Shown: positions 857 through 12,143 of the stretch, piece after piece
How positions within the stretch are numbered: the first letter of the stretch is position 1
Layout of the letters: every line of letters starts with the position of its first letter
From: a virus
IMG/VR virus record: IMGVR_UViG_3300012204_000013
Location: 1 to 42,564 of that record
Direction: 5' to 3' (one strand)
Length of the DNA: 42,564 nt
Notes under the pieces: model-generated
What the model was told of the DNA's origin: nothing
What the model saw: only the letters and a program-made list of their open reading frames with translations
Databases searched by the model: none
Position numbers and translations under genes: made by a program

Positions 857-1276
857 TTACTGCTTCGTGCCGGTGACCGCGTTCCCCTGGAAGACCCCGG
901 GCGTGCAGCCCTGGGTCGTGCAGACGTTCGGGCTGTACGCCGCGCCCGAGATCGAGCTGCTGGTGAACGTGCCGCGGATGGTGAACTCGATGACGCTGCC
1001 GCCCGCGTCCGACATGATGAGCAGCAGCGACCCGTCCTCGTGCCCGGTCCCCGTCGCGGCTCCAGCGTAGGAGCCGCACGCGTACGTCCCGACGACGGTC
1101 CCCGCGGACGGGGTCTTCAGCGCCATCGAGCCCGAGCACCCGCCCGACACGGTCAACGACCAGGTGCCCGACAGCGGACCTCCCTGATCCTCGACGCGGT
1201 CTGCAGCGTTCTCATCCGAGCTACCGCCGCACGCGGCGAGGGCAGCGACCAACGACATCATCACGATCTTCTTCAT
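857..1276 (-). CDS. Phage-encoded lipoprotein
   Basis: The 139-residue product begins MKKIVMMSLVAALAAC, a textbook signal peptide with basic n-region, hydrophobic core and lipobox (ALAAC, cleavage before Cys-16). The mature part starts GGSSDENAAD, so Asp is not at +2 and outer-membrane sorting by the usual rule is expected. It continues as a Gly/Ser/Thr-rich beta domain (GTWSLTVSG...) with two or three Cys pairs. The ATG at 1276 has AGAGGA upstream; the longer open frame upstream is not coding-like. Phage lipoproteins often act in superinfection exclusion or alter the host surface; that role here is inference. Hammerhead-like element 1 lies in the leader of this gene. Confidence 0.85.
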   Translation of the reverse strand: MKKIVMMSLVAALAACGGSSDENAADRVEDQGGPLSGTWSLTVSGGCSGSMALKTPSAGTVVGTYACGSYAGAATGTGHEDGSLLLIMSDAGGSVIEFTIRGTFTSSSISGAAYSPNVCTTQGCTPGVFQGNAVTGTKQ

Positions 1277-1336
1277 ACGTCCTCTGAACCCTGGACTTCG
1301 GATCGATGGAGGCAGGGTCGCCCGTCCCATCGCTTC

Positions 1337-1400
1337 GGCTTGTCTCGTCAGCGCAGCGGGAGCCACCCGGACGCGTACGCGCCGAGCGGCGCGTTTCGAC
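1337..1400 (-). ncRNA. Type II hammerhead ribozyme, copy 1 (divergent)
   Basis: Read on the minus strand: GUC-GAAAC, stem III (ACGCGCC, GCUC loop, GGCGCGU), then A as the cleavage-site base (GUA), stem I closed by a UGGCU loop, then the CUGACGA core and GAC. The GAC pairs with the first GUC to close a 3-bp stem II. The downstream AAGCC can pair with the GGCU of loop I. It differs from the other three copies in having GUA rather than GUC at the cleavage site and an interrupted stem I. It lies 5' of the lipoprotein gene. Predicted cleavage is between 1376 and 1375. Confidence 0.75.
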
Positions 1401-1404
1401 ACCA

Positions 1405-1722
1405 TCAACCAGCGATCTTCACGCCGTCCGCGTCGTACGCCTGACCGAGCCCGTCGCCGACGCCTACGCCAAATCGCTCGAAGCACGCGGGGCAGAGGTT
1501 ACCCCATGGACCCATCTTCGTCTTGCAGTCGAACCAGCCCGCGATGAGCGACTCCTGACAGACGTCGCACTCCTTCGGCTTCGGTCCGATCCACCGCTTA
1601 GCACGCTCGACGCTCACCATCGGCTGACCGCAGTGAGCGGGATGCTCGTCGCGGCTGAGGTAGCCGACCGGATCGTCCTCGCTGTCCCACGTTACGCCGC
1701 ACGCCTCGCACCTCCACTTCAT
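1405..1722 (-). CDS. Cys-rich zinc-binding protein, function unknown
   Basis: This 105-residue protein has two metal-binding clusters. The N-terminal MKWRCEACGVTWDSED with a later HPAHCG resembles a rubredoxin/zinc-ribbon knuckle. A second set, CDVC near residue 53 followed by CPAC near residue 77, forms another likely zinc site. The family is not recognised. It overlaps the preceding gene by four bases (ATGA), so the two are translationally coupled. Its stop codon lies five bases from hammerhead-like copy 1. Confidence 0.75.
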   Translation of the reverse strand: MKWRCEACGVTWDSEDDPVGYLSRDEHPAHCGQPMVSVERAKRWIGPKPKECDVCQESLIAGWFDCKTKMGPWGNLCPACFERFGVGVGDGLGQAYDADGVKIAG

Positions 1723-1997
1723 GGGTGCCTCCTCTCCCTCGCGCGCTCGATGGCCTGCTCCGCGCTCTCCGCGCGGAGGACGGCGAACGAGACGAAGCGC
1801 GGGCCGTCGTGGAGCAGCTCGTCCCAGCTGCCCTCGGTGTCGCGATACAGCACGCGCCGTCCCTCGAGGACGCCGAGCGCGCCGAGGTCCTCGATGACCG
1901 CCTCCGCATCGTTCGTCACGCTGAGGCCCACGTCCTGATCGATGACGAGCACGAAGTCCCCGCGGACCTCGTGCGTCCAGCTCGATCTGCTCTTCAT
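1719..1997 (-). CDS. Hypothetical protein, 92 residues
   Basis: The ATG at 1997 is chosen because GGAGG lies seven bases upstream and because it overlaps the stop of the previous gene (ATGA). The protein looks like a small alpha/beta domain (DFVLVIDQDVGLSVTNDAE near residue 14) with an acidic middle and a basic, helical C-terminus. No family or catalytic motif is recognised. Confidence 0.7.
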   Translation of the reverse strand: MKSRSSWTHEVRGDFVLVIDQDVGLSVTNDAEAVIEDLGALGVLEGRRVLYRDTEGSWDELLHDGPRFVSFAVLRAESAEQAIERARERRHP

Positions 1998-2488
1998 CCG
2001 AGCCTCCGCAGCGCGCGGCGGGCGAGCGCGACGACGGCGCGCAGCTCGTGGAACCGCTCGTATCGCGCGACCCACGCCTTCATCTCATCGCGCGCGCGGC
2101 TCACGACCTGTTCGCTGAACTCGTCGTCCCGCATCGCGTCGACCACGCCGATGTATCCGCGCCCCGCGTTCGGCAGCTTGACGATGACGTGCGCGCGCGT
2201 CGGCTTGCTCGGCGCTGCGCCCGGCATCCGCACCACGACGTAGTGCTGCTGGATGAGCTTGCGCGCTTGCTCCAGCCGCCACCTCTCTGACGCCTTCGCG
2301 TCGTCCCACTCGAAGTAGCGATGGAGCGGGCTCAGCTCGCCCCGCGCGTCCTCGAGGACGAGTGCCGCCGTCAGTCGTCCTCCGTTCCTCCTCTTGATGA
2401 GCTTGAAGCGCTCGACTATCTGTCGGATCGCAGCTTTGCTCCACCGCGACCCGGGCCTCGCAACGTCTTTGATGCTCATGTTTTGCAT
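1994..2488 (-). CDS. Phage protein with winged-helix-like N-terminus, unknown function
   Basis: This 164-residue protein starts at the ATG at 2488, with GGGAGAG nine bases upstream; ATG 2479 is an alternative. Residues 1-45 look like a small helical DNA-binding region. The middle carries a pattern I recognise from other phage proteins of unknown function: an 'SPLHRYFEWDD' element, then a helix 'RWRLEQARKLIQQHYVVV'. The C-terminal third is helical. It is the first gene after the pentamer repeat. A regulatory role is plausible but unproven. Confidence 0.75.
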   Translation of the reverse strand: MQNMSIKDVARPGSRWSKAAIRQIVERFKLIKRRNGGRLTAALVLEDARGELSPLHRYFEWDDAKASERWRLEQARKLIQQHYVVVRMPGAAPSKPTRAHVIVKLPNAGRGYIGVVDAMRDDEFSEQVVSRARDEMKAWVARYERFHELRAVVALARRALRRLG

Positions 2489-2747
2489 CTCGTCACGCTC
2501 TCCCTTCGTTGTTTTTTTCCCACGCCTGCCATGCCAGACCGCGCCCAACACTACCTAGCCCGACCGTACCGCTCCGGACCCTGACTGCCACGCCGCGCCA
2601 GACCGTAACTCACCATGACGTACGCCGCCAAGACTGCCTCGCCAGGCCAGACCTTACCTGACCGTAACGTTCCCGGTCCAAGACTGCCGGGCCCCGCCAC
2701 ACTTCGCCGCACCACGCGCCGCCAAGCCAAGCCTGCCACGATCGCCA
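2489..2747 (-). repeat. GG-phased pentamer (NNNGG) repeat tract
   Basis: Between a stop codon and the next start, the minus strand consists of imperfect pentamers that put GG every five bases, for example tacGGtcaGGtaaGGtctGG and tacGGtctGGcgcGGcgtGG. The phase is broken by occasional indels, and an 11-base unit (GGCAGTCTTGG) occurs twice. The tract ends in a run of seven A residues. It holds no convincing gene: the open frames through it are short low-complexity strings rich in Gly, Arg and Trp. The repeat starts directly at the stop codon of the gene at 2748-3404 and lies on the same transcript. Confidence 0.8.
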
Positions 2748-3404
2748 TCACTTCTTCTTCTTCCCCTTCGTCTGCACCTCGAACGTCCCGAACTGCCCGT
2801 CCTTCTGCGGCCGCCACTCCCCGATCCCGACGCTGAAGCCCGCGCTCTGGAGCAGCGCGACGAGCTGATCGGGAGCGATCATGTCGGTGCGGAACTTGAA
2901 CTCGAGGTCCGCACCCCAGTCGCGGTACTCCGGCCGATAGCGGAGGTCGGCGGAACGGTTGCCGAACGGACCGACGCGCACGGTGTCTTCTCGCATCACG
3001 CACCGCTTGTGCTTGATCTCGAAGTAGTCTCCGACGATGAAGATCGCCTGCCGGATGACCGACTTCGAGATGCCGAGCGCGTAGCCCGCATCGCACATCG
3101 CCTTCTTGATCGAGACGGTCGGGAAGCTGTCCTTTCCGTTGATCACGTACTTCGCCTCCTCGAAGTCGCGCTTGGGGTCCTTCGCCGTGCGGTTCTCCTT
3201 CGCCTTCTTCTTCTCCTCCTTGCTCATCTGCTGGAGGTCGAGCATCTGCTTCAGCGCCTTCTTCCCCCACCCATGGACGATGAGCGGCGAGAGTCCGTTG
3301 ATTCTGACGTTGAGCGTGCCGATGCTGATCGGCTTCAGCCCTACGATCACGCCCTTCGCCTCGCCGTTGTCCTCGACGTGCTGCGTCTTCTCGATCTTCG
3401 CCAC
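2748..3404 (-). CDS. Conserved phage protein of unknown function (possible Cas7/RAMP-like fold)
   Basis: This 218-residue protein starts with GTG at 3404, seven bases after AAGGAGG. Its layout matches a phage family I know by pattern but not by function: a first strand 'INGLSPLIVHG' (residues ~36-46), a charged Lys/Glu loop, 'FPTVSIKKAMCDAGY', 'MREDTVRVG', 'DLRYRPEYRDWGADLEF', and a closing 'AGFSVGIGEWRP' with 'FGTFEV'. The Gly-rich 'GIGEWRP' near the C-terminus and the strand/helix alternation recall RAMP proteins such as Cas7; this is an impression, not a homology result. The lysine-rich tail could bind nucleic acid. The pentamer repeat follows its stop at once. Confidence 0.85.
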   Translation of the reverse strand: MAKIEKTQHVEDNGEAKGVIVGLKPISIGTLNVRINGLSPLIVHGWGKKALKQMLDLQQMSKEEKKKAKENRTAKDPKRDFEEAKYVINGKDSFPTVSIKKAMCDAGYALGISKSVIRQAIFIVGDYFEIKHKRCVMREDTVRVGPFGNRSADLRYRPEYRDWGADLEFKFRTDMIAPDQLVALLQSAGFSVGIGEWRPQKDGQFGTFEVQTKGKKKK

Positions 3405-3405
3405 G

Positions 3406-3579
3406 TCACCCCTCCTTCTTTCGTCGCTTGCGCTCCTCGCGCCTACGCTTCGCCTCTTCCTTCTTCCGCTTGGCGCGCTCGACGCGCCTCCGCCTCTTCT
3501 CCTTCCAGCCCGGGTACGGGCGTCGCTTGATGACGTGCTTCACGTGCAGGTCTGGTCCCTCGAGTTCGTCATCGTCCAC
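3406..3579 (-). CDS. Small, extremely basic protein
   Basis: This 57-residue product (GTG start at 3579) has an acidic N-terminus (DDDELEG), a short middle with VIKRRPYPGW, and a C-terminal half of almost only Arg, Lys and Glu, predicted as one long charged helix. It overlaps the end of the metallopeptidase gene by eleven bases and stops one base before the GTG of the next gene, as expected for a coupled gene. The ribosome binding site is weak. Nucleic-acid binding is likely from the charge. It could instead be an accessory to its neighbour at 2748-3404. Confidence 0.65.
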   Translation of the reverse strand: MDDDELEGPDLHVKHVIKRRPYPGWKEKRRRRVERAKRKKEEAKRRREERKRRKKEG

Positions 3580-4216
3580 GTGCGATCCACGACTCAGCTG
3601 CCGCGATGAACTTCGGATGCGCTCGCCGCAGCACCGCTCGCCAGCTGAGATCGCGGACGGGCTTCAGCTTGAGACGCTTCGTGAAGAACTCCCACCGCAG
3701 CGGACGACCGACGCGGAGGAGGTCCGGGTTCGTGAGGAAGAGCTTGAACGCCTCGGCGAACGCCTCAGACATGTTCGGCTCGTACCTCGTGCACGGCGCC
3801 TCGCGCTTGAGGACGTCGCGCCACGCTCGCTTGTCGATGCGGCGGTACATCTGCGAGTAGACGTGATGCCCGGCCTCGTGCGCCGCGACTCCGAGCGGCG
3901 TAAGGTCGGCCTTGTAGCCGGGATAGGTCCAGCTGAAGCCCGGCTTCTTCGTCGGCGCGCGCGCTCGCTTGACATCGACCACGATGCGGCCGCGGCCGTC
4001 GTACCATCCATAGAGGCCGCGCGACGGGAGCGAGCCGCCGTCGCCACCGCGCCATCCGGGCCAGCTGCTGAGCAAGTTCACGCAGCGGAAGCGGAGGTGA
4101 AGCTCGCCTGCGGAGAGGCCGAGCAGCTCCTCCAGCTTCCGCTGGTTTGGTCCGCCTGAGAACGCGAGGGGCGAGTCCGACGAACGGCTCGGCGCTTGCC
4201 CTACGATGAGGATCAC
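3569..4216 (-). CDS. Uracil-DNA-glycosylase-like N-terminus fused to a zinc metallopeptidase
   Basis: This 215-residue protein starts with GTG at 4216 behind GGAGGGAG. Residues 1-60 (VILIVGQAPSRSSD..., FSGGPNQRKL, RCVNLLSSWPG) match the opening of small phage uracil-DNA-glycosylase-like proteins: the 'GxAPSxxSD' turn, the 'SGxxxxKL' turn and 'NLLxxWPG'. The rest of that fold is absent. From about residue 75 there is a different domain with HEAGHH near residue 117, a zinc-peptidase helix, and SEAFAEAFKLF about 30 residues on, which could supply the third ligand. The conserved peptidase motif suggests an active enzyme; substrate unknown. It may be a deletion fusion or a natural two-domain protein. 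Confidence 0.75.
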   Translation of the reverse strand: MILIVGQAPSRSSDSPLAFSGGPNQRKLEELLGLSAGELHLRFRCVNLLSSWPGWRGGDGGSLPSRGLYGWYDGRGRIVVDVKRARAPTKKPGFSWTYPGYKADLTPLGVAAHEAGHHVYSQMYRRIDKRAWRDVLKREAPCTRYEPNMSEAFAEAFKLFLTNPDLLRVGRPLRWEFFTKRLKLKPVRDLSWRAVLRRAHPKFIAAAESWIARGR

Positions 4217-4269
4217 CGCGCCGCTCCCTCCGTTCCCTCGACGAGGTACTCCCTCTCGCACTTGGCCAT
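4213..4269 (-). CDS. Putative 18-residue peptide upstream of the peptidase gene
   Basis: ATG at 4269 is preceded by AGAGGTGAG and opens a frame of 18 codons (MAKCEREYLVEGTEGAAR). Its TGA overlaps the GTG start of the next gene (GTGA). It exactly fills the gap between two coupled genes. It may be a leader peptide that drives initiation of the downstream gene, or a genuine micro-protein; the sequence does not decide. Confidence 0.45.
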   Translation of the reverse strand: MAKCEREYLVEGTEGAAR

Positions 4270-4272
4270 GTC

Positions 4273-4518
4273 TCACCTCTCCGCGATGACGATGATGACG
4301 AGCGTGGACCACTTCGGGTGCGCCTCGCTCGGCTCGACGCGCGCCGTCCACGAGACGATGTTCCACTTGTCGCCGCGGAGGTTTTGGACGAGTATCTCCG
4401 CAAGCTTCGTGGCGTCCTCCTGCTTCGCCTCGAACAGGCAGAGCTGCTTCGCGTAGAAGTGTGTCCGACCGCGCGCGTCCTTCTTCGCCTTGTTGAACCC
4501 GTAGCCGGGGCTCGTCAC
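4273..4518 (-). CDS. Hypothetical protein, 81 residues
   Basis: The GTG at 4518 has AGGAGG six bases upstream and overlaps the previous stop. The protein begins MTSPGYGFNKAKKDARG and alternates strands and a helix (LCLFEAKQEDATKLAEIL, KWNIVSWTARVE, TLVIIVIAER), suggesting a compact alpha/beta fold. The family is not recognised. Confidence 0.7.
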   Translation of the reverse strand: MTSPGYGFNKAKKDARGRTHFYAKQLCLFEAKQEDATKLAEILVQNLRGDKWNIVSWTARVEPSEAHPKWSTLVIIVIAER

Positions 4519-5051
4519 AGGTACCTCCTGATGCGGCGCGTCGAGATGCGGTCGCGCACCTCGTGCGCCTTCGCGGAGCCCGCCTTCCGCAGCTCGAGGA
4601 ACGGCAGCAGCTCCTTGGACCGCGTAGGAGCGACGTAGACGGTCACGCGGGCGAGCACGTGAGGTCCGGCGCCGACGCGGAGCACGTCGATGGGGCGCGT
4701 GTCGCCCTCGTCGATCCTGCCGCTCGTGCCCAGCGCGAGCCCGTCCGGCGGGATGCGGACCGCGTACGTGCGGTCTGCGATCGACGCGTCCGTCATGCGG
4801 GCGCGGTGGCCCGCGTGGCGGATGAGGAGCGTCGGGATGCACCACCCGAAGCGCTCCGTGTACCACATCTCGAACATCGCGGGCTGCGCGAAGCCGATCT
4901 GCTCGTCGAACCACCGCGCGAGGCGGTTGAGCGCGAGCGGCGACTTGAGGTCGCGGAGCTTCACGCCCTCCGGCAGATCGATGCTTCGACGTCCGACGAC
5001 GTACTGCTCACGGCGCGGCTTGCGCGCGGCCCTCTTCTTCGTACTCTTCAC
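4515..5051 (-). CDS. Hypothetical protein, 178 residues
   Basis: GTG at 5051 follows GAGAGGAG by seven bases and overlaps the stop of the gene before. The N-terminus is very basic (KSTKKRAARKPRR), followed by a globular region with many aromatic residues (RLARWFDEQIGF, FEMWYTERFGWCIP) and a strand-rich second half (HVLARVTVYVAP). The C-terminus is basic again. The family is not recognised. Confidence 0.7.
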   Translation of the reverse strand: MKSTKKRAARKPRREQYVVGRRSIDLPEGVKLRDLKSPLALNRLARWFDEQIGFAQPAMFEMWYTERFGWCIPTLLIRHAGHRARMTDASIADRTYAVRIPPDGLALGTSGRIDEGDTRPIDVLRVGAGPHVLARVTVYVAPTRSKELLPFLELRKAGSAKAHEVRDRISTRRIRRYL

Positions 5052-5407
5052 GGTAGGCTCCTCTCCAGCGAGCGCTGTCCGCGCGCCGCCTTCACGACCT
5101 TCGACTTGTTCATCAGCTTCAGCTTCCGCTTCAGCTCGACGTCGGCCGACTTGAGGTCGACCTCGGTCTGCGCGATGAGGTTCAACGCCGCCTGACCGCG
5201 CGTCGCGGCGAGCGCGCGCAGGCGCTGGCCGTGGTTCGAGACGAGGCCGCCGTACCCGCCGAACCGACCGACGACGCGGAACACGCCCTCGGTCGCGCGC
5301 TCCACGCGCAGCTCGTCGATGAGGACCTCGTCCGTCGCCGTCCCGAGGTACGCCTCGAACACCGTGACGCCGCGCCTCCTCGCGTCCATCAGCTCCTCGA
5401 TCGTCAT
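5048..5407 (-). CDS. Hypothetical protein, 119 residues
   Basis: The start at ATG 5407 has GGAGG eight bases upstream; the longer open frame belongs to the overlapping frameshifted gene. The N-terminal half (MTIEELMDARRRGVTVFEAY) is mixed alpha/beta, then a Gly-rich turn (RFGGYGG), then a helical C-terminus rich in Lys and Arg. It is coupled to both neighbours by 4-base overlaps. The family is not recognised. Confidence 0.7.
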   Translation of the reverse strand: MTIEELMDARRRGVTVFEAYLGTATDEVLIDELRVERATEGVFRVVGRFGGYGGLVSNHGQRLRALAATRGQAALNLIAQTEVDLKSADVELKRKLKLMNKSKVVKAARGQRSLERSLP

Positions 5408-5713
5408 GACGCCACCTCCGAGCGTGCGCGGTCGGCCTCTGAGCGATCCGCGCACACGCGCCAGCCGAACGAGGCCCAGCGCTCGATGGTCGGCTCCTTC
5501 GTGGCGCAGAGGACGACGGTCCTGCGGTCGTCGAAGTAGGCCTTGCGGTTCGACACCTCGTCCGGCTGCAGCGTGATCGACGCGAGCGAGCGCGCCGCCG
5601 TCGGCGGGCCACGCGCAGTCGTACCGCAGCATGTCGATCGGGAAGTGACCCGCACCGACGACGACGTACTCCACGACCTCTCGCTTGCCGAGCTTCTTGA
5701 ACTTGGTCTTCAT
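5404..5713 (-). pseudogene. Hypothetical phage protein interrupted by an apparent +1 frameshift
   Basis: The ATG at 5713 (GGAGGAG upstream) opens MKTKFKKLGKREVVEYVVVG with 'FPIDMLRYDCAWPADG'. That frame then loses coding character. A frame shifted by one base continues with ARSLASITLQPDEVSNRK and ends 'RWASFGWRVCAD...' at 5404. The two halves read as one protein of about 102 residues joined near 5595-5602, in a GC-repetitive stretch. 'FPxDMLRYD' followed by 'RWxSFGWxV' is a pairing I know from intact phage proteins of unknown function. An assembly error, a real mutation or programmed +1 shifting are all possible. Confidence 0.65.
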
Positions 5714-5739
5714 AGCTCCTCCGTTTCGGCGAGTTCACC

Positions 5740-6437
5740 TCATGTGTCGAGTGGCTTCCTGACCTGGACTTCCTTACCGTCCTTCCGACCGTCCGTGACC
5801 GCGGACCAGTCCATGTTGCGCTTCTTCTCCTTCGACGTGCGACCGCCGGTCTGCTCCTCGACGTACGCCTTCACGCGCGCGGCGACGCTCGGCCGCACGA
5901 GCGGCTCCACCTTCTTGACCACCTCGTTCGCCCAGCCGAGGCAGTATGAGTCGCCCTTGCGCGCGAGCGCGCGCCGCGGCTCGACCAGCCCTCCGCCTTG
6001 AGCCGAACGAGGTAGGCGGCGCGGGCCTTGCGCATCGCCTTGGACAGGCTCGTCGCCGCGTACGTCGCGACCTTCACGTCCACGCTCGGGCCAACGAAGA
6101 TGTAGTGGGCGAAGTACCGGTCCACGCCGACCTCGCTCGACTTGAAGAGCCCGCCGACGCCGGCCTTGAACATCACCTCGCAGCCGAACGCGTGGGCGAT
6201 GCCGCCGAACAGCAGCCACTCATAGTCCTTCGCGCGGCGCGCTGAGGCCCACGAGCGGAGCGGGTGCTCCTTGATCGGCCCGATCTCGGCGTCGGACGTC
6301 GACACGCCGTGCTGCTTCATCATCTCCTGCGCTCGCTGCAGGGCGAGCGCCGCCTCGTTCGCGTTCGGGTTGTTGCTCGCGAGCGCAAGCAGCTTGGCGA
6401 TGCGTTCGAGGATCTTCGGGTCCACGTCGTTGCTCAT
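5740..6437 (-). pseudogene. DUF2786-type protein with an apparent -1 frameshift
   Basis: ATG 6437 opens a typical DUF2786 N-terminus (ILERIAKLLALASNNPNANE, ALQRAQEMMKQHGVS), then a domain with DYEWLLFGGIAHAFGCEV and strands continuing to about residue 155 (RAAYLVRLKAEGW). Near 5960-5985 this frame turns into Arg/Ala/Ser junk. The frame one base back carries ARKGDSYCLGWANEVVKKVEPL and a charged tail ending at 5740, as expected for the rest of the family. The join lies in a GCGCGC-rich run. The full product would be about 230 residues. Function of the family is unknown. Confidence 0.7.
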
Positions 6438-6479
6438 GACTTCACGCCTTTCGTCGAGTTCACCTATGGAGAGGGAAAG

Positions 6480-6507
6480 GGGCGGCGCCGTAGCTGCGGC
6501 GCCGCCC
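6480..6507 (-). terminator. Rho-independent-type terminator
   Basis: An 11-bp perfect GC stem (GGGCGGCGCCG pairing with CGGCGCCGCCC, six-base loop) begins about 21 bases after the stop at 6529. On the minus strand it is followed by CTTTCCCTCTCC, a short pyrimidine tract. It would end or attenuate the transcript of the gene at 6529-6819. Confidence 0.6.
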
Positions 6508-6528
6508 TGGGGAATGGCACGGTCGACC

Positions 6529-6819
6529 TTACGCGTGCTTCTCTGCGAAGTCGGCCTTGATGAGCTTCGCGATGACGAGCTGGCGGCGGTACCACGACGG
6601 GTAGCCGCGGTGGTTCTTCGTCACCTTGAACTTCTTCACGAGCGCGGCGAACACCTCCTCGTTGGTCTTGCCCTCGAGGATGAGCTTACGCGCGAAGGAG
6701 GACATCGAGCCCTCGCGACCCTCGACGCTCTTGAGGACGCGGGGCGCGGAGGTGTCCTTCGCGGAGCGCTGGTTCTTCTTCGAGCTGCGGCCGTTGTTCT
6801 TCTTGGCGATCGTCGTCAT
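6529..6819 (-). CDS. Small basic protein, paralog of 7838-8155
   Basis: This 96-residue protein has a Lys/Ser/Asn-rich flexible N-terminus (residues 1-25) and a C-terminal domain with ARKLILEGKTNEEVFAALV and YPSWYRRQLVIAK. That C-terminal domain occurs in other small phage proteins and looks like a compact helical DNA-binding unit. It is clearly related to the gene at 7838-8155, about 60% alike over the C-terminal part by eye. Hammerhead-like copy 2 lies in its leader and a terminator-like hairpin follows. The two paralogs may be a nucleoid-associated or regulatory pair; inference only. Confidence 0.8.
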   Translation of the reverse strand: MTTIAKKNNGRSSKKNQRSAKDTSAPRVLKSVEGREGSMSSFARKLILEGKTNEEVFAALVKKFKVTKNHRGYPSWYRRQLVIAKLIKADFAEKHA

Positions 6820-6847
6820 GACTTCTCCACGTGCTGCGTTGGGGTTT

Positions 6848-6911
6848 GGCTTGCCTTCATCAGCGCCGAGGGAGCCACCCTCGACGGACGCCGCTCGCGC
6901 GGCGTTTCGGC
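6848..6911 (-). ncRNA. Type II hammerhead ribozyme, copy 2
   Basis: Minus strand: GCC-GAAAC, stem III ACGCCGC with a GCGA tetraloop and GCGGCGU, cleavage-site C (GUC), stem I of nine pairs closed by UGGCU, CUGAUGA core, an extra A, then GGC. The GGC pairs with the leading GCC, whereas the other copies have GUC with GAC: a compensatory change in stem II. AAGCC follows and can pair with loop I. The element starts on the last base of the stop codon of the gene at 6911-7339. Predicted cleavage is between 6887 and 6886. Confidence 0.85.
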
Positions 6912-7339
6912 TACTCGTGGCTCCCGCGGTGCTCGTCGTCGCCGTGGTCGTCGGCGAGTCGGCGCATCGGGTGCGGCTCCGATCCCTTGACGGGCGAGTC
7001 GCACTTGGGGCACGTCAGGATCTCGCCGTCGTCCGCGGCCTGCGACCACTCCGACTCGCATACGCCGCACGAGTAGTCTCGGACGATGTACTCCTCATCG
7101 GCCTCGCCCTCGACGGCGGAGCGGTGTCGCACGGTGACGAGCGCCGTCCCCTCGTAGCGGACCGACGCCATCGTCCCCTCGACGAGGAACACCAGATAGA
7201 CGGTGGTCGCCTTGTGGTTCGCGAACGCGATCTCCCGCACCTCGAACCAGCCGAGGTCGGTGAGGACGAGGTCGCCCGTACGGACTTGGCTCACCGGCGC
7301 GACGCGCTGCGCTCCGTGCTTCGTCTTGCGCGCGCTCAC
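6911..7339 (-). CDS. Beta-domain plus zinc-finger protein, unknown function
   Basis: This 142-residue protein (GTG 7339 behind GGGAGG) has a strand-rich N-terminal domain (VRTGDLVLTDLGWFEVREI, TTVYLVFLVEGT) that looks like a small barrel. A C-terminal zinc finger follows: CGVC near residue 91 and CPKC near residue 110. The end is His/Asp-rich. It overlaps the gene before by four bases. The combination suggests binding of nucleic acid or a protein partner; the family is not recognised. Confidence 0.75.
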   Translation of the reverse strand: MSARKTKHGAQRVAPVSQVRTGDLVLTDLGWFEVREIAFANHKATTVYLVFLVEGTMASVRYEGTALVTVRHRSAVEGEADEEYIVRDYSCGVCESEWSQAADDGEILTCPKCDSPVKGSEPHPMRRLADDHGDDEHRGSHE

Positions 7340-7581
7340 GACTGGCCTCCCGGCGCGAGCTTCTCAACGCGGATGCCCCAGCGCCCGTCGGGACGCAAGC
7401 TGCCGCAGCGCACTTTACCATCGCGCCCGTTGTGGTCCCACTTGACGGAGAGCGAGATGCTGTTGACGCGGACGACGGTCGCGGTGAAGCCGCGCCCTCG
7501 AGCGCTCCCGGGCTTCGTCGTATCGAACACGTGGATGCGGTCGCCGGAGCTGAACTTCTTGAGGTCGTCGATGGTGAACAT
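7336..7581 (-). CDS. Hypothetical small barrel-like protein
   Basis: This 81-residue protein starts at ATG 7581 with GAAGGG about ten bases upstream. It is mostly beta (GDRIHVFDTT, FTATVVRVNSISLSVKWD) and resembles SH3/KOW-type small barrels in layout, though I cannot assign a family. It is coupled to 6911-7339 by a GTGA overlap, and that gene has a similar N-terminal barrel-like part. Confidence 0.7.
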   Translation of the reverse strand: MFTIDDLKKFSSGDRIHVFDTTKPGSARGRGFTATVVRVNSISLSVKWDHNGRDGKVRCGSLRPDGRWGIRVEKLAPGGQS

Positions 7582-7612
7582 TTCGTCGTGCCCTTCTTTC
7601 GGTTACTGGTGG

Positions 7613-7753
7613 TTACTTCGTTTCCTTGCAGGTACCGCCCTCGAACGCTGCGGCGACGTTGCAGAACGTGTGCCGGAGCTCCTCGCCGAGTCGCGACGCG
7701 CCGAACGCGAGCGCGACCGAAACGAGGGCGGCGATCAGCGCCTTCTCGATCAT
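7613..7753 (-). CDS. 46-residue single-pass membrane protein
   Basis: ATG 7753 is preceded by AGGAGG at ideal spacing. The product starts MIEKALIAALVSVALAFGAS, one hydrophobic helix with Glu/Lys at the N-terminus, then a short soluble tail with two Cys (TFCNV, GTCKE). It could be an inner-membrane anchor or a small holin-like or host-takeover protein; there is no evidence to choose. Its leader contains hammerhead-like copy 3. Confidence 0.7.
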   Translation of the reverse strand: MIEKALIAALVSVALAFGASRLGEELRHTFCNVAAAFEGGTCKETK

Positions 7754-7768
7754 CTCTTCCTCCTAGTG

Positions 7769-7838
7769 GGCTTGTCATCATCAGCGCCGAAGGAGCCACC
7801 CTCGACGGACGCGCCGGCCGCGGTCGGCGCGTTTCGAC
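7769..7838 (-). ncRNA. Type II hammerhead ribozyme, copy 3
   Basis: Minus strand: GUC-GAAAC, stem III ACGCGCCG with CGGCGCGU and an eight-base loop, cleavage-site C (GUC), stem I (CGUCGAGGG with CCUUCGGCG, two wobble pairs) closed by UGGCU, CUGAUGA core, an extra U, GAC pairing with the leading GUC, then AAGCC complementary to loop I. It starts on the stop codon of the gene at 7838-8155 and ends about 15 bases before the start of the 46-residue gene. Predicted cleavage is between 7808 and 7807. Confidence 0.85.
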
Positions 7839-8155
7839 TAGTGAGCGTGCTGCTCAGCGAACTTCGGGTTGACCTGCTTCGCGACGACGAGCTGCCGGCG
7901 ATACCACGACGGGTAGCTGCGGTGCGACTGCGGGACCTTCTTCGTTCCGAACTGCTTCACGAGCGTGGCGAAAACCTGCTCGTTCGTCTTGCCCGACTTG
8001 ATGAGCTTCCGAGCGGCGAAGGAGATCGAGCCCTCGCGGCCGTCGCCCTTGAGGACGCGGGCGACGGACGAGCCCTTCGCGACGATCTTGCCGTTCTTGG
8101 AGGAGCCGTTGCGGCGGGAGTTCTTCTTCGAGGACTTCGCGTTCTTGGTAGCCAT
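7838..8155 (-). CDS. Small basic protein, paralog of 6529-6819
   Basis: This 105-residue protein has a Lys/Asn/Ser-rich N-terminal tail followed by RVLKGDGREGSISFAARKLI, GKTNEQVFATLVKQF and YPSWYRRQLVVAK. The last segments are shared with 6529-6819. The ATG at 8155 has AAGGAG upstream. It is the first gene of the block transcribed out of the gene-free region and has hammerhead-like copy 4 in its leader and copy 3 right after its stop. It probably binds DNA; inference from charge and family pattern. Confidence 0.8.
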   Translation of the reverse strand: MATKNAKSSKKNSRRNGSSKNGKIVAKGSSVARVLKGDGREGSISFAARKLIKSGKTNEQVFATLVKQFGTKKVPQSHRSYPSWYRRQLVVAKQVNPKFAEQHAH

Positions 8156-8182
8156 GGTGTTCTCCTTGTCGCGCTCAGCGCG

Positions 8183-8248
8183 GGCTTGTCATCGTCAGCG
8201 TCGAGGGAGCCACCCTCGAACGGACGCGGCGCTTCGCCGCGTTTCGAC
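8183..8248 (-). ncRNA. Type II hammerhead ribozyme, copy 4
   Basis: Minus strand: GUC-GAAAC, stem III ACGCGGCG with an AAG loop and CGCCGCGU, cleavage-site C (GUC), stem I (CGU, bulged U, CGAGGG with CCCUCGACG) closed by UGGCU, CUGACGA core, an extra U, GAC pairing with the leading GUC, then AAGCC complementary to the loop. Stem III has C-G swaps relative to copy 3 that keep pairing. It lies 28 bases upstream of the ATG at 8155. Predicted cleavage is between 8223 and 8222. Confidence 0.85.
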
Positions 8249-9149
8249 TTCACTCCGAAGCACCGACGTTAGGGACGATCACCCGTTGCGATGACTGTGA
8301 CGTCATCCGCCCTCGCGTTCGCCTCGAGAGCGCACCGAGTTGTAGCTCGGTCGCGCTCGCGGGACGTCGGAGCGTTGTCGCTCCGCCGCATCGATGCTTC
8401 GTCGTCTCGCAGACCTGCGCACCGTGTCGTGGTGAGACGCTCTTCCGAGTATTCAGTTGGCGAAGGTCGCTCGACGGAGACTGCTCGTTCCGTACCGGAT
8501 GTCCACTCTGCGGGTTTCCGCGTCGCGCTATCGCGCTTTGAGTCGGGCCGGTTCGCTACTTCGTGCTACGAAGGAAAGATATCACCTCCAATTGGATGTG
8601 CTAGGGCACCCGAACAGGTATAGGCCTGCCCGTTCGGCCGCCGCAGAGGTCGGATGGCTCGCGCGACGAGCGCGCAGGGTCGCCGCAGCGCGACGATCGC
8701 GAGCGCCGACGGGTCGCGAGCGCGGCCGCGTCGTTTCGAGCGCGCTAGAGAGGAGCCAGCGCGTACCTGAGAGGAGCCTGCGGCTCAGAAGGGTCGGGCA
8801 GCTCGTCGGAGCGCTCGTCGAGCGCGCGCGAACCGTGGGCGAGCGCTCGTCGCGCTCGAACCGTCGTCCGTGAGCTTCGTGGAACGAACGAAGGGCGGCG
8901 AGGTCGACGTGACGCCGGTTCCGCAACCGGAGCACGCTTGACTCGCCGCCCTTCTCAGCCCGCTAACGGGCCCTCTCGCACCTCGCCTGAGCGGGTGCTT
9001 CACTCGTCGCTAACCAGCGTCTGGTACTTCGCCCGCAGACCTAGAGCATGACGTCACCTCAAACTGGTCTCGCAGACTCGTCCACGCACACGATACGCGC
9101 TGCGACTTCAGAGGCTCCGATCGTAGATCGCCCGCGCCTGCGCGTCGAG
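8249..9149. other. Gene-free 900-base region rich in inverted repeats
   Basis: I see no credible gene on either strand; the open frames are Arg/Ser/Ala-rich noise without ribosome binding sites. The region holds several dyads: GATGAC/GTCATC at about 8290-8307, ACCGAG/CTCGGT at 8334-8351 within a longer imperfect stem, GCATCGATGC near 8390, CTTCGT/ACGAAG near 8565, a 12-bp stem AAGGGCGGCGAG (8891-8902) with 8942-8953 enclosing CCGGTT/AACCGG, and GCCCG/CGGGC at 8958-8971. TGACGTCA occurs near both ends. It probably contains the promoter of the leftward hammerhead block; an origin or a structured RNA is possible. Confidence 0.6.
8891..8953. other. Nested inverted repeat, possible structured RNA or origin hairpin
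   Basis: A 12-bp perfect outer stem (8891-8902 with 8942-8953) encloses a second perfect hairpin, CCGGTT-CCGC-AACCGG at 8915-8930. A further 5-bp hairpin follows at 8958-8971. The fold is not a tRNA: no T-arm or anticodon arm fits. It lies downstream of the methyltransferase gene on the minus strand. Confidence 0.5.
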
Positions 9150-11706: not shown

Positions 11707-12143
11707 CGCAGCTCCCGTCGCCGGTACTCGGGACAGTCGTTGAGGTGATGCGCGCCGGGCGAGCCTGGCGTCGCCCCGCACCCGCGCGGACACTTCGTGC
11801 CGTGACGAGGGCACTCGGCGTTCCACCGCAGTCGAGCCGCGTGGAAGTCGGAGCCCGCTCCGGCGTCGGAGTTGACCGACTCGCACGTGCAGGTCTTGAA
11901 CTCGCCGCCGTGGCGCGGGCACTTCGGATCGAGCGTAATCGCCCTAGGGCACGTGCAGGCCTTGTAGCGCGGCGAGCACGGGCAGTTGGGATCCTCGCAC
12001 GGCGCGACGGGGAACGGGTGTCCGCGCGTCGAGGCCGCGCGCAGCACGATCACGATCACGGTGGAGATCGTAACGAAGAACAGCGCGACGAACGATCCCA
12101 CGACGGCGGTCACGACCGCTCTCCATCGTCGCCGCGGCGCCAC
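11703..12143 (-). CDS. Membrane-anchored Cys-rich protein
   Basis: This 146-residue protein has a basic N-terminus (APRRRWR), one transmembrane helix (VVTAVVGSFVALFFVTISTVIVIVL split over residues ~10-34), and a Cys-rich remainder with repeated CPxH and CxCP motifs (CEDPNCPCSP, CTCPR, CPRHGGEFKTCTC, CPRHGTKCPRGC). The GTG at 12143 is preferred because AGGAG lies just upstream; TTG 12170 and GTG 12161 are alternatives. The Cys repeats may bind several metal ions. No family is recognised. Confidence 0.65.
   Translation of the reverse strand: MAPRRRWRAVVTAVVGSFVALFFVTISTVIVIVLRAASTRGHPFPVAPCEDPNCPCSPRYKACTCPRAITLDPKCPRHGGEFKTCTCESVNSDAGAGSDFHAARLRWNAECPRHGTKCPRGCGATPGSPGAHHLNDCPEYRRRELR

Follow-up and report, generated by a model that had tools for sequence, protein, structure and literature searches.

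Four predicted type II hammerheads among the leftward genes of a tailed phage, and similar arrays in other phages

The DNA considered here is the IMG/VR virus record IMGVR_UViG_3300012204_000013 at its full length of 42,564 bases (in the following called the window), which has a guanine-cytosine (GC) content of 67% and carries four segments in the gaps of a leftward gene set that, by sequence and covariance model, are type II hammerhead ribozymes (family RF02276). Gene calls based on codon-position GC assign to the minus strand nearly all genes between the left end and about 21 kb, and to the plus strand most of the larger genes farther right. The genes for the portal protein, the major head protein and the tape-measure protein belong to the plus-strand set, and those for a primase and a DNA methyltransferase to the minus-strand set, and this gene content therefore marks the virus as a tailed phage, siphovirus-like in its portal, capsid and tape-measure genes, whose early operon runs leftward.

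The original prediction had placed four type II hammerheads on the minus strand, and a covariance-model search of the window with Infernal against all 4227 Rfam families confirmed all four sites (termed A to D, Table 1) with RF02276 matches of 31.7-51.9 bits, each spanning the full 66-position model. When the record was searched with RF02276 alone, the four copies had expected values (E) of 1e-11 to 3e-6, the two weaker ones lying at about 1e-6. A fifth match at 4760-4835 on the plus strand (14 bits, E 0.12) is noise, the record holds no other copy, and no other ribozyme class was found in the window up to an E of 1 in the search of all Rfam families. The motif CGAAACGC-N-TGGCT-N-CTGANGA matches the window four times and not once in 100 shuffles. 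The core (C3 U4 G5 A6 N7 G8 A9, G12 A13 A14, A15.1-U16.1 and H17) is complete in all copies, with H17 being C, C, C and A, and the parts follow each other as GYC-GAAAC-stem III hairpin-UH-stem I hairpin-CUGANGA-GRC, leaving stem II with its 3 base pairs (bp) open, just as had been proposed. That CUGANGA is directly followed by GRC was also part of the prediction, and this holds for copy D, but in A, B and C an extra base lies between them. The compensatory nature of the stem changes was borne out, as GUC/GAC is replaced by GCC/GGC in stem II, and stem III shows covariation between the four copies. Copy D lacks the extra base after A9, and its stem I is imperfect.

Table 1. Predicted hammerheads and the genes next to them in the leftward operon (aa, amino acids; nt, nucleotides)
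Feature	Position	Strand	Predicted cut between	Remarks
Hammerhead copy A	8180..8248	-	8223/8222 (GUC^C)	RF02276 match 8180-8249, 33.0 bits, E 0.0052
Hammerhead copy B	7766..7838	-	7808/7807	RF02276 match 7765-7839, 44.9 bits, E 3.9e-6
Hammerhead copy C	6845..6911	-	6887/6886	RF02276 match 6844-6912, 51.9 bits, E 5.7e-8
Hammerhead copy D	1334..1400	-	1376/1375 (GUA^C)	Weakest copy; RF02276 match 1333-1401, 31.7 bits, E 0.012
105-aa basic protein gene	7838..8155	-		Only gene between copies A and B; matches phrog_17205 (unknown function) weakly
46-aa gene	7613..7753	-		First after copy B; gene call
81-aa gene	7336..7581	-		Lies between B and C; matches neither PHROG nor Pfam families
142-aa gene with Cys motifs	6911..7339	-		Last before copy C; stop shares a base with the ribozyme
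96-aa gene	6529..6819	-		Follows copy C directly; shares 78% nt identity with its paralogue 7838-8155
105-aa Cys-rich gene	1405..1722	-		Directly before copy D, stop 4 nt from stem II; phrog_29767, unknown function, E 8.9e-12
139-aa gene with lipoprotein-type signal	857..1276	-		First after copy D; signal (MKKIVMMSLVAALAAC) read by eye

The predicted hammerhead fold is at the same time the minimum free energy fold of copy B (-30.7 kcal/mol) and of copy C (-33.7 kcal/mol), and it comes very close to it in copy A (-28.8 versus -29.2 kcal/mol), so that the fold is supported for these three and less certain for D. That loop I forms a pseudoknot with the tail had been suggested as well, and this was borne out, because the GGCU of loop I is complementary to the AGCC of the tail in all four copies, and because this complementarity covaries in a wider comparison set of 82 distinct copies from 19 viral records. 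It averages 5.04 bp over the 82 copies, compared to 4.42 bp if the tails are swapped among the copies (the highest of 500 swaps being 4.67) and 3.60 bp if the letters of the tails are shuffled. Compensating pairs of loop I and tail are UGGCU/AGCCA, UGACCU/AGGUCG, UGGGGU/ACCCCG, UAGCCU/AGGCUA and UGUGCCC/GGGCACA. This covariation agrees with the findings of Perreault et al. (2011; PMC3088659), who demonstrated by mutation and compensation that the type II pseudoknot is required for fast cleavage.

The extra base between A9 and stem II is a U in copies A and B and an A in copy C. It recurs in 31 of the 82 copies of the comparison set and is a U in 28 of these, but a single 112-kb phage accounts for 19 of the 28, which thus are not independent. 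An extra residue (A10) is known from the matching core position, between A9 and G10.1, of the (+) hammerhead of chrysanthemum chlorotic mottle viroid (CChMVd), where the A moderately slows trans-cleavage, C or G are harmful, and U speeds up cleavage 3-4 fold (PMC3705267). The viroid is a circular plant RNA, its hammerhead has another topology, and the extra residue is an A there, whereas most phage copies with such a residue have a U. The preferred residue in the phages is thus the one with which the viroid ribozyme cleaves fast. By analogy, the extra U may also quicken the type II form.

Similar arrays were found in other phages when IMG/VR was scanned with a pattern taken from the four copies of the window, after which the full records were searched with RF02276 (E up to 0.01). 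Among the matches listed, to which all these IMG/VR counts refer, 42 of 80 viral records have RF02276 matches and 17 records, including two pairs of near-identical ones, have 2-20 copies (20 in one 112-kb record, four records with 7 each and two with 6 each), which indicates that multi-copy arrays are common and is no estimate of their prevalence. The copies are confined to one strand in each of the 17 multi-copy records, as they are in the window. The 112-kb virus record has its twenty type II hammerheads within 13 kb of its first 15.5 kb, one after most genes and all on a single strand, and 19 of them have the extra U after A9. Cultured Streptomyces phages also belong to this group: Thestral (11 copies), Janus (11) and Celia (10) carry unannotated type II hammerheads in the gaps of a minus-strand gene set, 29 of these 32 between two coding sequences. 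The annotated start codon lies inside the ribozyme in the other three, where the start probably has been set too far upstream. No paper on hammerheads in Streptomyces phages or jumbo phages was found among the open-access papers searched.

This kind of element is already known. Perreault et al. (PMC3088659) described type II hammerheads with their pseudoknot, found them in prophage clusters flanking genes, and brought up the idea of transcript processing. Tandem arrays were found to cleave in vitro, a triple array of Agrobacterium tumefaciens was found to cleave in E. coli, and spliced or circular products of such arrays were sought and not found (PMC3088659). The role of bacterial and phage hammerheads was still called an open question in a review from 2017 (PMC6155905), and the window contributes a clear case to it. 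The window agrees with the published RF02276 type II ribozymes in the CUGANGA/GAAA/UH core, the closed stems I and III, the short open stem II, the pseudoknot of loop I and tail, and the clustering of copies beside phage genes on one strand, and it differs in the extra base of three copies, in two copies that score below the gathering threshold, and in the phage and genes concerned. Like the A. tumefaciens array around ardA, it has several hammerheads in what would be a polycistronic phage transcript, but cleavage has been seen with that array, both in vitro and in E. coli, and is predicted here, and the four copies of the window are at least 0.4 kb apart, extend over 7 kb and flank other genes. 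The arrays of Thestral, Janus and Celia share with it that the RF02276 copies, all of them on the minus strand, occupy gaps between small early-type genes, and copy C has 82% identity with one of the Thestral copies, but there are 10-11 copies per genome and the spacing to the upstream stop is looser. Four dispersed copies had been regarded as unusual for a phage, which does not hold in view of the clusters published in 2011 and of the records with 5-20 copies found here; four are few beside other phages.

It is likely, with a probability of about 80% in our estimate, that the four type II hammerheads cut the leftward early message into shorter mRNAs whose hairpin ends tune expression. Each ribozyme would fold during transcription in such a way that hairpin loops close stems III and I and stem II stays a short open helix of 3 bp, the pseudoknot of loop I (UGGCU) and tail (AAGCC) would lock the fold, and self-cleavage would take place after UC or UA. 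The pieces would be the 105-aa gene alone (between A and B), three genes (between B and C), a long piece (between C and D), and, past D, one that begins with the lipoprotein-like gene. As stem II is the open helix, a hairpin would be found on both new ends: the upstream product would end just past a stop codon in the hairpin of stem III, carrying a 2',3'-cyclic phosphate, and the downstream product would start with a 5'-OH and the hairpin of stem I, ahead of a ribosome-binding site. Ends capped in this way would alter mRNA stability and could allow different expression levels for each gene. Transcript processing had been part of the original prediction, and it is the role that anatomy (copies between genes, shortly after a stop codon and shortly before a start codon) and the published precedent of the A. 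tumefaciens array support best; the window has what characterizes such phage clusters, namely several co-oriented hammerheads that flank genes or short gene blocks, and we infer that cleavage takes place in this phage. Several observations weigh against this interpretation. Copies A and D stay below the gathering score of RF02276 (Hammerhead_II), which is 37, and only B and C exceed it; the hammerhead fold of copy D (-22.8 kcal/mol, energy of the pseudoknot not counted) competes with a fold of -28.1 kcal/mol, and as this is better by about 5 kcal/mol, D is a doubtful member of the set; three window copies have the extra core base; three contigs with a related capsid gene carry no hammerhead, although these contigs are distant and in part fragments; and that cutting benefits the phage is something we infer.

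A regulatory alternative accepts active hammerheads and focuses on the stop codons next to them. The upstream stop ends 0 (B), 0 (C), 1 (A) and 4 (D) nucleotides (nt) before the first base of stem II, and in B and C the last base of the TAG stop even doubles as the first G of stem II. A ribosome that terminates at such a stop would cover the GYC-GAAAC part, so that cleavage would be delayed or tied to the translation of the upstream gene. In other viral records, 53 of 78 copies have the stop of the longest upstream frame no more than 8 nt away from the ribozyme, compared to 4.6% of random same-strand positions, a control that includes coding positions and therefore overstates the contrast for an intergenic element. 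The annotated stops of Thestral, Janus and Celia lie within 8 nt in only 10 of 32 cases and within 21 nt in 22 of 32 (most of those outside 8 nt are 12-28 nt away), and a tight abutment of the stop is therefore common, but not a rule; start codons mostly follow 15-21 nt after the ribozyme in these phages. The tightness may merely mirror the compactness of the genomes, and stem II and GAAAC would be free again once the ribosome has departed; such a gating is conceivable but rather improbable. Copy A has no more in front of it than a possible open reading frame of 18 codons (8250-8306, read by eye), which ends 1 nt before the ribozyme, and the predicted position of each copy at a junction of genes thus stands for B, C and D, but not for A, which is preceded by about 0.9 kb without a called gene.

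It could also be argued that the copies are short homologous linkers for the gain, loss and shuffling of gene cassettes between phages, with cleavage being of little use. The window copies are 76-88% identical to each other, two paralogous genes are each preceded by a ribozyme, and the flanking genes vary in the window and in the examples of Perreault et al. (2011; PMC3088659). Identity is higher within a record (0.70) than between records (0.63), so copies multiply or homogenise inside a phage lineage. A linked duplication of ribozyme and gene was considered as the only route of spread and rejected: copies A and C, which precede the paralogues, are less alike (82%) than A and B or B and C (88%), and a simple duplication of ribozyme plus gene thus fails to explain the set. 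Compensatory changes maintain core, stems and pseudoknot, which recombination alone would not need, and every copy is oriented in the direction of transcription and located in a gap, both of which make linkers of this kind unlikely.

Very improbable is an origin from a small circular RNA or a retrozyme-like mobile element, in which paired hammerheads would release and circularise the unit between them: there are indeed several related copies around short units (about 414 nt from A to B), but the units are ordinary co-directional phage genes with Shine-Dalgarno sequences at unequal spacings, there is no reverse transcriptase among the families searched, and the spliced or circular products looked for by Perreault et al. 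(2011; PMC3088659) did not turn up. Least of all can it be believed that GC-rich dispersed hairpins (terminator-like, or like repetitive extragenic palindromic elements) resemble hammerheads by chance, as one could suspect from the base composition of the window and from folding energies that are unremarkable against shuffles (z-scores of 0.0 to -2.0, which are uninformative in such GC-rich DNA), since the covariance-model E goes down to 5.7e-8, shuffled DNA lacks the pattern altogether, and the same core occurs in unrelated phages at similar sites. Terminators at the four sites were considered and discarded, as no T-run follows the stems and no terminator was called.

The leftward operon has some further features. 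The two paralogous genes of the minus strand (6529-6819 and 7838-8155), which directly follow copies C and A, respectively, encode small basic proteins with the common end GREGS..FARKLI..GKTNE.VFA.LVK..HR.YPSWYRRQLV.AK, and the weak match to phrog_17205 is the only one they have. The region of about 0.9 kb immediately upstream of copy A (8250-9149, minus strand) has no Rfam match, and it contains short direct and inverted repeats of the GCGCTCGTCGAGCGC type and a palindrome at 8580-8603. A gap of the operon at 2520-2713 is occupied by a degenerate tandem repeat with a period of about 49 nt and five copies of CCNNGACTGCCNNGCC..., which has a strong excess of C on the plus strand (GC skew -0.37) and looks like iterons or a regulatory repeat. 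A sub-threshold match to CRISPR-DR29 at 11985-12045 on the minus strand (25.2 bits, gathering score 39, E 0.34) probably is due to chance. The first 9 kb have no near-identical match among 50,697 phage records; neither the 105-aa gene nor the primase has relatives in the viral contigs searched, and the primase has none in the genomes searched either.

What is added to the known picture are named cultured phages with 10-11 copies each, the placement at stop codons, and the extra U after A9, and the latter two, the placement and the extra residue, appear to be under-described. One may go further and consider phage hammerheads as a punctuation of mRNA, with stop codons that abut or overlap stem II, a cleavage gated by ribosome release, hairpins at both cut ends that replace terminators and ribonuclease (RNase) sites, and the extra U, present in about a third of the copies, as a rate-raising variant; this is a speculative proposal that we consider improbable as a whole. 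Its stop placement and extra U nevertheless are two specific hypotheses that can be tested, and such arrays, which are common and reach up to 20 copies, also occur in the cultured Streptomyces phages, in which cleavage and its effects on expression are directly measurable.

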